Positions 45,328 to 48,601 of a DNA stretch of 64,000 nucleotides are shown one piece after another (position 1 is the first letter of the stretch; each line of letters opens with the position of its first letter). The stretch is from Oscillatoriaceae cyanobacterium M7585_C2015_266 (lineage in GTDB: Bacteria; Cyanobacteriota; Cyanobacteriia; Cyanobacteriales; Oscillatoriaceae). The notes under the pieces were generated by a model, which searched no databases, was not told the origin of the DNA, and worked only from the letters and a program-made list of their open reading frames with translations. Location: positions 1 through 64,000 of the forward strand of contig DVEG01000005.1 in NCBI GenBank assembly GCA_015295835.1. Direction: 5' to 3'. The position numbers were made by a program, and so were the translations under genes.

Positions 45328-46188
45328 ATGACTTTATTGATAGCACATTTAGGCCCTCCCGGCACTTATACGGAGGCAGCAGCCCTGGCTTATGTTGAAA
45401 AAATGGCCAGAGAAACAGGTCAAGACTGCTTGTTACATCCGTATCCGACGATCGCTAAAACGCTGCAGGCAGTGGCGCAAGGGCAGGTACAGCGAGCTGT
45501 GGTGCCGGTGGAAAATTCCATCGAAGGAAACGTGCCGATGACACTGGATACCCTGTGGCAGTTAGACGAGCTACAAATTCAATTAGCGTTGGTTTTGCCG
45601 ATTTCTCATGCTTTGCTTTCAACGGCAGAAAAGTTAGAAGAAATTCAAAAAGTTTATTCGCACCCGCAAGCGCTTGCTCAGTGTCAAGACTGGTTGGCAA
45701 AGTTTCTCCCCAATGCCCAGTTAATTTCCACTAATTCGACGACAGAAGTGCTCAAAAATTTAGAGCGGGAGAAGACTGCAGGGGCGATTTCCTCTCAACG
45801 AGCCGCTCAACTCTACCAACTGCCGATACTAGCGTATCCAATTAATGATTACCCACACAATTATACTCGCTTTTGGGTGTTGAGTTTAGATGCTTCTCCT
45901 GGCGGTACGCATACCTCTTTAGGTTTTAGTGTTCCCGCCAATGTTCCCGGTGCTTTAGTTAAACCCTTGCAAGTGTTTGCAAACCGCCAGATTAATCTGA
46001 GTCGGATTGAATCGCGCCCAACTAAGCGCTCGCTCGGCGAGTATCTTTTTTTCATAGATTTGGAAGCTGACGCTACCCAACCTTTCGTACAAGCAGCGCT
46101 AGAAGAATTAAAAATTCATACTGAGACTTTGAAAATTTTCGGCAGCTACAGTGTTCTCACAGCCCCTCTTGACTTTACAAACCAATAA
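45328..46188 (+). CDS. pheA: Prephenate dehydratase
   Basis: Converts prephenate to phenylpyruvate for phenylalanine synthesis. The N-terminal catalytic domain begins HLGPPGTYTEAAAL and includes VVPVENSIEGNVP and the catalytic T180-R181-F182. A C-terminal ACT domain (about 195-280) for phenylalanine feedback carries the ESRP motif (LSRIESRPTKRSLGEYLFF). No chorismate mutase domain is fused, as in other cyanobacteria. Length is 286 residues. Confidence 0.94.
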   Translation: MTLLIAHLGPPGTYTEAAALAYVEKMARETGQDCLLHPYPTIAKTLQAVAQGQVQRAVVPVENSIEGNVPMTLDTLWQLDELQIQLALVLPISHALLSTAEKLEEIQKVYSHPQALAQCQDWLAKFLPNAQLISTNSTTEVLKNLEREKTAGAISSQRAAQLYQLPILAYPINDYPHNYTRFWVLSLDASPGGTHTSLGFSVPANVPGALVKPLQVFANRQINLSRIESRPTKRSLGEYLFFIDLEADATQPFVQAALEELKIHTETLKIFGSYSVLTAPLDFTNQ

Positions 46189-46399: not shown

Positions 46400-46465
46400 A
46401 AAAAAACCTGCTCAGCAGATAAACCGAGCAGGTGTTTGGTGTGAGGAGTGAACATGAAATGCTCT
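46400..46465 (-). ncRNA. yfr1: Yfr1 cyanobacterial small regulatory RNA
   Basis: Read leftward, all three parts of Yfr1 are present in order. First comes a 5' hairpin, GAGCAT-TTC-ATGTTC (46464-46450). Then an unpaired stretch contains exactly ACTCCTCACAC (46449-46439), the ultra-conserved Yfr1 core that pairs with target mRNAs. Last comes a 3' terminator stem ACCTGCTC/GAGCAGGT-type (46433-46406) followed by seven T (46406-46400). Length is about 66 nt, within the known range. A TTGACA lies upstream (46496-46491) as a possible -35; no good -10 stands out. In other cyanobacteria Yfr1 controls outer-membrane porin-like mRNAs. It lies between pheA and a membrane-protein gene with no gene on its own strand. 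Confidence 0.9.
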
Positions 46466-47047
46466 ATAAGAAAAGGATACTGAAGGAATGTGTCAATGTT
46501 GTGACAGTCTTATGTCAAGTCTGTGTTATTTTGCTGACTTGTGAATTGAGATGCCTGAAAAGGTGCAATAAAAGCTTTTTCTAGTACTTAGTGCATATAA
46601 TAAGATTTGATATTACAAACTAGCGCAATCGCTTACTAGAATTAGAGGTTATTTAAAATATGGTAATTTATTGATGGCATCTTTCCCACTATAATAGGTT
46701 ATACAAGAATTTAACTTTTGTCAAGCAGCTTTGGAAACAGAAAGTAAGCTTTCTTTCACTAGCGAGCTTTTTGGTACTTTTCTAGGTTTGCCGAAAATCA
46801 AGCACAATAGAGAGCTAGGGCGTAAGGGGAGAAGATATAACCATTGAGAGACAATAAAGTAAATTTTAACTTTTTTTTATGGGAATGAACTAGCTTACGA
46901 TGTTGGTTTTGGTGCAATATATCACCTTGGGAGTTTGTACCCAAGGAGTTGCTCGGTCTATAACCGAAGAAATAAAACGCGCACATAGCGCTTTCATAAG
47001 ACGTAATGCGAATTGCGTCGCAAAAACTTGTGAGGAGGAAACCGATT
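46466..47047 (+). promoter_or_regulatory. AT-rich upstream region of the membrane-protein gene
   Basis: No gene. A hairpin CCTTGGG/CCCAAGG with an 8-base loop lies at 46925-46946, and a strong ribosome-binding site (AGGAGG, 47033-47038) 9 bases before the ATG at 47048. The hairpin-rich part may be the 5' UTR of that gene. The left end also contains the promoter of Yfr1 on the opposite strand. Confidence 0.45.
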
Positions 47048-48601
47048 ATGTGGATAATTGCTCAAGGTATTCCCAACCTACCGGATTTGACGCATCCCAA
47101 TGAATTAATAGAATTTGGCACCCAGATGCTGAGGAATGCCCAAGGGTTGGCCATACTGGTAGGGGTTGTAGGAATCGCGCTCGCCCTAATCGGTTTTTCT
47201 CTGCATCGAATGGAGGTAGAGCGAGCGGGCTGGCTCGAAAAATGGCTAGAGCGTTACGATTTATTGCTGGGCAAATTACTGCACGCCATATTAGTGATAG
47301 CGCTTTTGGTGGGGGGATTTTATCTAAGTTCTACATTAGCGAATCGCTACCACAATTGGGAACAGGCACGATTGGCGAAAGCAGCCTTCAGCGTAGCGGG
47401 TGAGCGCATGGAACAACCAGCGCCGCAAGTGCGCTACGTCATCCAAGAACCCTATACCTACGACACAGTGGTAGAAAATCGAGTCGTCCGAGTGCAAAAG
47501 ACGCGAGCGGTGAACCGTTTTTTAACGCTTAGCAGTTCTCAGATTGAGGTAAAGATAGACCTAGTTGGCGAGCCCCAAAAACAGGGGCGATACCTCTACA
47601 GTGTTAATTACAGTGGTGATTATAAAGTTACCAACCCATTTGCTCAGACTCAGTCTTTTTTCTTTGAAGTGCAGCCGCCTAAGGGTTATTTGTTGTTGCA
47701 AAACTTCAAAGTTGAGCAAAACGGAACGCGGCTGGTGCCGGTAAATCCGGGAGACTATGGTTTTCCATTTAACCTAGAGCCGGGGCAAGAAGCTAAATTT
47801 CGAGTTACTTACAAGGCGCAAGGTGGACCTCGCTGGGTTTACAATGCCAACGGGCAACTGCTTTCTAAATTTCGCTTAAATGTTTTAGCGAATTTTCCCA
47901 ATGCTGATTTTGCTAGCGGCATTATTCCCACACTGATTAGCCAGGAAGGGGAAGGCACCCAATTTACTTGGGTGTTTGATGATAATGTTTCTGTCCGCCA
48001 TCCTTTTGGGGTTTTTACTTCTAGTGGGCCAATTCGCAATACAGGTATTCTTCCGCGTTTACTGATACTGGCACCGGCACTTTTCCTGTGGTGGATTTTG
48101 ATGCTGTACTTGTCGCTACCGATGAGTTTGCGAGATGTAGCGCTTGCAGGAGGGGTCTTTTTTGCCTGTCTGTTGGCTTTAACTTATCTCAGCCGTATTG
48201 TAGATGTCAAGGACGCTTGGGGCGGCATTTCTCTATTTATGCTCATACTGGTTTGGGGGCTTGGTTCAAATTGGCGAGCTTCTCTTGCCGCTGTTATTGC
48301 TACTATTGCTGGTTGCTTGCTGCCGGTGTTTGGATTGCTGATTCCTTATAGTGGACTTACGCTCAGCCTTGCCGGTATTCTTTCCGTGCTGTGGCTTGCG
48401 GTGCGTCACTGGTATGGCTGGTATCAGATTGATAGAAAGCCTAATGGTAAAAAAGATCAGCAAAAATTAAATAATGGCAAGAAGATGAAAGTTGAAGATA
48501 TAGTAACGACTGAGCCAGTTGTCACCACCGATGAAGTTACAAAAGAAGCTCCAAAAATTGATTCAGGAGTTATTGAGGAGCGGCTGCCTGAAAAGCCATG
48601 A
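47048..48601 (+). CDS. Multi-span membrane protein with a large extracytoplasmic beta domain
   Basis: The start is set at the ATG at 47048 by the AGGAGG ribosome-binding site; an ATG 14 codons upstream lacks one. The topology reads: hydrophobic segments at about 30-52 and 75-97; a soluble, strand-rich domain of about 225 residues (about 100-325); five more hydrophobic segments from 335 to 475; and a charged, disordered-looking C-terminal tail. The layout recalls CreD-like inner-membrane proteins, but I would not assign it to that family without a profile search. Function unknown. Convergent with the LON-domain gene and terminated by the hairpin at 48659. Confidence 0.75.
   Translation: MWIIAQGIPNLPDLTHPNELIEFGTQMLRNAQGLAILVGVVGIALALIGFSLHRMEVERAGWLEKWLERYDLLLGKLLHAILVIALLVGGFYLSSTLANRYHNWEQARLAKAAFSVAGERMEQPAPQVRYVIQEPYTYDTVVENRVVRVQKTRAVNRFLTLSSSQIEVKIDLVGEPQKQGRYLYSVNYSGDYKVTNPFAQTQSFFFEVQPPKGYLLLQNFKVEQNGTRLVPVNPGDYGFPFNLEPGQEAKFRVTYKAQGGPRWVYNANGQLLSKFRLNVLANFPNADFASGIIPTLISQEGEGTQFTWVFDDNVSVRHPFGVFTSSGPIRNTGILPRLLILAPALFLWWILMLYLSLPMSLRDVALAGGVFFACLLALTYLSRIVDVKDAWGGISLFMLILVWGLGSNWRASLAAVIATIAGCLLPVFGLLIPYSGLTLSLAGILSVLWLAVRHWYGWYQIDRKPNGKKDQQKLNNGKKMKVEDIVTTEPVVTTDEVTKEAPKIDSGVIEERLPEKP

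Follow-up and report, generated by a model that had tools for sequence, protein, structure and literature searches.

A second Yfr1-motif small RNA gene with a phased repeat array in its promoter region in Oscillatoriaceae cyanobacteria

Yfr1 is an abundant transcript of 54-69 nt that is usually encoded near guaB/trxA in cyanobacteria (PMC2190773). The original prediction placed a Yfr1 gene elsewhere in Oscillatoriaceae cyanobacterium M7585_C2015_266, between pheA and a membrane-protein gene, and took its neighbourhood to be different from trxA/guaB. Is this element the Yfr1 of the genome, or another RNA with the same motif? We analysed the window (a stretch of 64,000 nucleotides, contig DVEG01000005.1), the rest of the genome and related genomes. 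The element is an extra Yfr1-motif small RNA (sRNA) and not the true Yfr1 of this genome.

Anatomy of the sRNA gene

Direct reading of the - strand across the element (...TATCCTTTTCTTATAGAGCATTTCATGTTCACTCCTCACACCAAACACCTGCTCGGTTTATCTGCTGAGCAGGTTTTTTTATTC) confirmed the hairpin, the 11-mer and the GC-rich terminator with seven T at the positions originally given. The locus has the following features:

46489-46528, - strand: four TGTCACA-like units with exact 11-bp spacing, a putative response-regulator operator (direct reading and conservation); the units are TAACACA (46528-46522), TGACATA (46517-46511), TGTCACA (46506-46500) and TGACACA (46495-46489)
46474-46479, - strand: predicted -10-like hexamer TATCCT, which aligns with TATAGT/TATGGT of relatives
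46400-46465, - strand: predicted sRNA transcript of about 65 nt (from the distance to the -10 hexamer and the terminator end; fold z = -5.6)
46464-46450, - strand: 5' hairpin GAGCAT-TTC-ATGTTC of 6 bp, including one G-U (RNA folding)
46438-46453, - strand: GTTCACTCCTCACACC, the Yfr1 core and flanks, the same in the canonical Yfr1 of this genome
46449-46439, - strand: exact 11-mer ACTCCTCACAC (direct reading)
46433-46406, - strand: intrinsic terminator stem-loop ACCTGCTCGGTTTATCTGCTGAGCAGGT with an 11-bp stem, then T7 (46406-46400)
45328-46188, + strand: pheA (prephenate dehydratase and ACT domains; Pfam PF00800, PF01842), convergent neighbour with conserved synteny
47048-48601, + strand: membrane-protein gene, upstream neighbour, with the start taken from homologue starts

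The transcript would begin at about 46465-46467, given the spacing from the -10 hexamer. It folds with -23.5 kcal/mol (z = -5.6 against 200 shuffles), leaving all 11 core bases unpaired. The exact ACUCCUCACAC lies inside an unpaired stretch of 16 nt (46449-46434), within the 16-20 nt of Yfr1. The 5' stem of 6 bp, with its G-U pair, falls in the Yfr1 range of 6-10 bp, and the GC-rich 3' hairpin is followed by a U tail as in Yfr1, with 11 bp and T7 (published stem range 6-9 bp). A scan of 900 bases gave two terminator-like sites, this one included, against 0.3 expected. The 11-mer occurs once in the window, where shuffles give an expectation of 0. In the whole 3.98-Mb genome there are five exact copies, against two for the reversed pattern, and the 11-mer is therefore weak evidence by itself. 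An sRNA gene at 46400-46465 is nevertheless well supported, and the predicted unit of core, terminator and promoter, conserved at the same locus in relatives, is not a product of chance.

For the membrane-protein ORF, 47048 (MWIIAQGIPNLPDLTHPNEL) is the probable start, in line with its homologues, and not 47006, the start of the longest ORF. Its product matched no Pfam family.

Relation to the canonical Yfr1

The best alignment of the element with the Rfam covariance model of Yfr1 (RF01116) scored 22.8 bits, below the gathering score of 38, and no match was found within the window at the gathering threshold. The element thus fails this check as a canonical Yfr1. Other sub-threshold Rfam matches, such as RyhB, STnc370, LhrC and sR084, were far under their cutoffs and we took them as chance. 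Searching the whole genome with RF01116 revealed a canonical Yfr1 of 60.7 bits on contig C23 (21843-21907), flanked by guaB (IMP dehydrogenase) and trxA, as named from translated ORFs. This gene order is the published arrangement (PMC2190773). Hence, the window element encodes an additional RNA, because the position between guaB and trxA is occupied by a high-scoring Yfr1. The original prediction was right about an sRNA gene that has the motif and layout of Yfr1 and lies on the - strand between pheA and the membrane-protein gene; it was wrong in taking this gene for the Yfr1 of the genome in a different neighbourhood.

The two RNAs have GTTCACTCCTCACACC and the general layout in common, with unrelated hairpin stems and promoters. 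The likeness to RF01116 thus comprises the undecanucleotide with its flanks, two hairpins around an unpaired stretch of 16 nt, an intrinsic terminator and a predicted length of about 65 nt. The element differs in its sub-cutoff score, its location away from guaB/trxA, its coexistence with a canonical Yfr1 and a phased-repeat promoter in place of the canonical one. All 13 near-complete genomes checked have a canonical Yfr1 above the cutoff, and so do all near-complete family members; none was found in G006, a 66%-complete genome.

A phased repeat array upstream of the sRNA

The four repeats, which end directly ahead of the -10 box, are the most informative part of the element and had been overlooked in the original prediction. 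A scan for sigma-70 two-box promoters was negative at the sRNA promoter, with no canonical -35 at 16-18 bp from TATCCT. Over nine loci, the mean unit score at -11, -22 and -33 bp was 5.56, 5.89 and 5.67 of 7, respectively, against a background of 2.3. The periodicity profile peaked at 11, 22 and 33 bp, and none of 20,000 random draws matched the mean score at -11 and -22. This array is the only three-unit site with at most two mismatches in the genome, and in seven family genomes the promoter of canonical yfr1 showed no TGTCACA-like array.

Which regulator could bind such an array? Sites of the OmpR/PhoB family consist of 8-bp boxes with 3-bp linkers, and the cyanobacterial Pho box has three repeats of CTTAACCT with an 11-bp period (PMC1906773). 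The array shares with the PhoB/SphR Pho box the 11-bp spacing of direct repeats upstream of the -10. We rejected this identity since the TTAA core is absent and units such as TGTCACA and TGACATA do not fit CTTAACCT. The HLR1 element of RpaB is (G/T)TTACA(T/A)(T/A), repeated twice with a 2-nt gap and a period of 10 (PMC9241938); it was also discarded, the array having a period of 11 and units of TGTCACA, not TTACA. We infer that the array is the operator of an OmpR/PhoB-type response regulator, whose geometry it fits, while its sequence matches none of the consensus sequences compared. A literature search for a Yfr1 duplicate, covering the main texts, found no paper describing a TGTCACA operator.

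Conservation within the family

The element is present in six of the eight genomes of the GTDB family, always with the array conserved. The locus beside pheA and the neighbour gene is kept in most of the family, across four genera. Homologous copies at this locus occur in G002, G003 and G004. In the first two, pheA and the element are convergent, with the element on the downstream side of pheA and, in G003, the neighbour gene immediately following. G004 (Oscillatoria sp. PCC 10802, NZ_KB235948.1) has the same orientation, with the neighbour gene at about 0.6 kb and pheA about 8 kb off. In G001 the element adjoins the neighbour gene by a contig end, and pheA lies by the end of a different contig. 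The copy of G006 is on a short contig. G005 and G007 retain pheA and the neighbour gene and have lost the RNA at the locus. Among genomes with the neighbour gene outside the family, the core was not found beside it.

All six copies have the same twelve core bases (CTCCTCACACCA), in surroundings that diverge. The terminator stems differ among relatives, with compensatory changes at two pairs (RNAalifold), and G002 has only a weak 5' hairpin.

Two rearrangements of the locus were seen. In Oscillatoria sp. PCC 10802 (L099, 3119-9700), about 8 kb of additional DNA separates the sRNA from pheA; it contains a REP-type transposase-like ORF and repeats, and is missing from the window genome. In genus g3 (L049, L050, L052) a pentapeptide-repeat-like ORF lies immediately 3' of pheA; two of its three species (G005, G007) are those that lost the sRNA there.

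Occurrence beyond the family

We searched 293 genomes of the order for the core together with CACA/TG-ACA repeats. Apart from the six family genomes, only one of the other 285 (G186) had such a copy, adjoining a glycogen-synthase-like gene. Requiring one TGTCACA in 390 genomes of the class gave non-canonical copies in families f33 (G081, G113) and f56 (G385, G413, G478); all have a terminator, and most have further units in 11-bp phase. Reversed-pattern controls gave no match in either search.

In 149 genomes of the order we also searched for the core and a T-run irrespective of the operator. From the matches we picked 20 further regions by eye for a hairpin ahead of the T-run, with 21 non-canonical cores. 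Twelve of these cores reach at least 16 of 21 for a three-unit 11-bp array (each p ≤ 0.011 against random placement): five in f18, four in f15, two in f12 and one in f2. The other nine are without array, and most of them (f33, f15) have an upstream motif CTGTTACCAAAACTGTTACGAG and CCGTG/CACGG-type terminators, forming a second promoter class. Over 17 loci of the array type, most copies have the 5' hairpin, with variable arm sequences (mean z -1.4, combined z -5.7); it is absent from the f56 and f2 copies.

Six further families thus have the arrangement of array, core and terminator, at unrelated loci, and a canonical Yfr1 is also present wherever checked. Since the neighbour genes differ between families, the conserved unit is the operator with the RNA, not the locus.

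These data bear on whether the array belongs to the sRNA at all. It could serve the divergent membrane-protein gene and leave the RNA as a constitutive backup of Yfr1, given that this gene (start 47048) lies upstream, that both share the intergenic region and that G005 and G007 keep the gene without the sRNA. We consider this unlikely, because the proximal unit lies 42-54 bp from the core in every copy and other families have the array ahead of the core at unrelated loci beside different genes. It is more doubtful still that the element encodes no functional sRNA and is either a paralogue in decay or just a bidirectional terminator of pheA with a chance motif. The low Rfam score and the five exact 11-mers of the genome, at least two of which look incidental or are complements of ribosome-binding sites (RBS), would fit such an origin, but the invariance of CTCCTCACACCA over four genera amid diverging surroundings, the compensatory changes in the terminator stem and the conserved promoter argue against it.

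The second-class loci (L209, L212, L219-L223, in G070, G148, G097, G063, G041, G081 and G113) share terminators of the CCGTG type and conserved upstream boxes resembling CTGTTACCAAAACTGTTACGAG; G097 encodes two such Yfr1-core RNAs in tandem, about 300 bp apart.

Candidate targets and a Yfr2-type RNA

According to two studies, the Yfr1 motif pairs with the 5' UTRs of genes for porins, other outer-membrane proteins and peptidoglycan functions, and mutations of UCCU abolish this pairing (PMC6974561, PMC6778093). In the window genome, GTGAGGAG occurs 2-14 nt from an ATG at 17 sites, against 10 for the reversed control. This enrichment is modest. Porin mRNAs had been suggested as targets, and an SLH-OprB porin (C20:132891; Pfam OprB, 6.9e-39), with a site at the start codon, is indeed among the candidates. 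A strong candidate is a predicted 171-aa barrel-like protein with a signal peptide, whose RBS has a perfect 12-nt complement, GGTGTGAGGAGT (C18:482454-482471, - strand; L203); its matches to OMP_b-brl in Pfam are weak and sub-cutoff.

The adjacent membrane-protein gene is a further candidate, its RBS CTTGTGAGGAGG being complementary to the core over 9 nt. Might the sRNA act mainly on this gene, by pairing at its RBS? The complementary stretch TGTGAGGAG is immediately 5' of the start codon at 47048, and G003 carries a variant, GTGAGAGGAG. The site is not conserved in G001 and G004, where the sRNA is in the same place, and is absent from other homologues, which makes a mainly local role a slim prospect.

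A Cyano-1 RNA on contig C18 (519753-519820) scored 38.3 bits, slightly below the cutoff of 41. Its GTGTGAGGAGCGAAC is complementary, with one mismatch, to the core of either sRNA together with its GTTC flank. We take it to be the local Yfr2.

Proposed function and relation to known RNAs

We consider it quite probable that the element is an additional gene for a Yfr1-motif sRNA under its own control, with a response-regulator promoter, envelope mRNAs as targets and titration by Yfr2. A regulator of the OmpR/PhoB family would bind the four phased repeats abutting the -10 box and activate transcription of an RNA of about 65 nt, from near 46465 on the - strand to the terminator at 46406-46400. Its single-stranded GUUCACUCCUCACACC may pair with the ribosome-binding sites of mRNAs encoding mainly outer-membrane and envelope proteins, and repress their translation. 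The sRNA would then supply the Yfr1 motif in response to a signal, atop the constitutive Yfr1 pool, and the Yfr2-type (Cyano-1) RNA, with its complementary GUGUGAGGAGCGAAC, could titrate it. The least probable reading is that the genome's own Yfr1 moved from trxA/guaB, as originally thought: the core is identical and the layout alike, but the 60.7-bit Yfr1 still lies between guaB and trxA, the element scores only 22.8, and both RNAs coexist in relatives.

Extra Yfr1-motif sRNAs are already known as a kind. Those described are Yfr10, Yfr12 and Yfr18 of Prochlorococcus MED4, Syr5 of Synechocystis 6803, two RNAs of Nostoc 7120, and Yfr104 (PMC2518516, PMC6778093). The element resembles them in carrying the motif on an additional sRNA in a Yfr1-bearing genome. 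Yfr10 has the motif in an apical loop atop a stem and, in high-light Prochlorococcus only, lies beside Yfr2; in our element two hairpins enclose the motif, and the Cyano-1/Yfr2-type gene is far away, on contig C18. The locus and promoter of the element are conserved within its family. Against the texts compared, three features seem to be new: a second copy with the two-hairpin layout of Yfr1, its conserved family locus and, most of all, a phased operator in at least seven families. The operator may have been noticed before.

The abundance of Yfr1 has been described as almost constant, and only sequestration by Yfr2 has so far been proposed to let its regulon respond to conditions. Our results suggest that many cyanobacteria make a Yfr1-type regulator on demand besides constantly. 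The enterobacterial sRNAs OmrA and OmrB are activated by OmpR and repress outer-membrane proteins. The likeness is in the proposed principle only, from an OmpR-family regulator through an sRNA to mRNAs of outer-membrane proteins, with a putative regulator and putative targets on our side, and there is no homology to the window sRNA.

The evidence seems to us about evenly balanced on a broader view: that filamentous cyanobacteria have a module of an OmpR/PhoB-type regulator, an 11-bp-phased TGTCAYA array and a second Yfr1, a cassette occurring in at least seven families at differing loci; that the CTGTTACCAAAACTGTTACGAG-driven class is a third Yfr1 in some genomes; and that the name 'Yfr1' covers a family of RNAs under different control, all with one pairing motif and one Yfr2 sponge. 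A separately switched paralogue with a recognisable operator offers a testable route to the regulator and its signal. Studies of Yfr1 targets in filamentous strains may capture effects from two or three RNAs at once, and the Rfam Yfr1 model misses the second type.

Other copies of the 11-mer in the genome

Three further exact 11-mers were rejected. The copy at C18:482463 is the complement of an RBS, and the one at C29:87916 has no terminator alongside. At C10:123421 there is a strong hairpin with the core, but the terminator is distant and weak. This last copy (C10:123421-123431, - strand; L002, L148) forms a third core-bearing hairpin, AGTGAACAG..CTGTTCACT, which overlaps the Yfr1 core. Only a weak stem-loop follows, about 45 nt downstream, and the hairpin is flanked by murI-like and polyprenyl-synthase-like genes.
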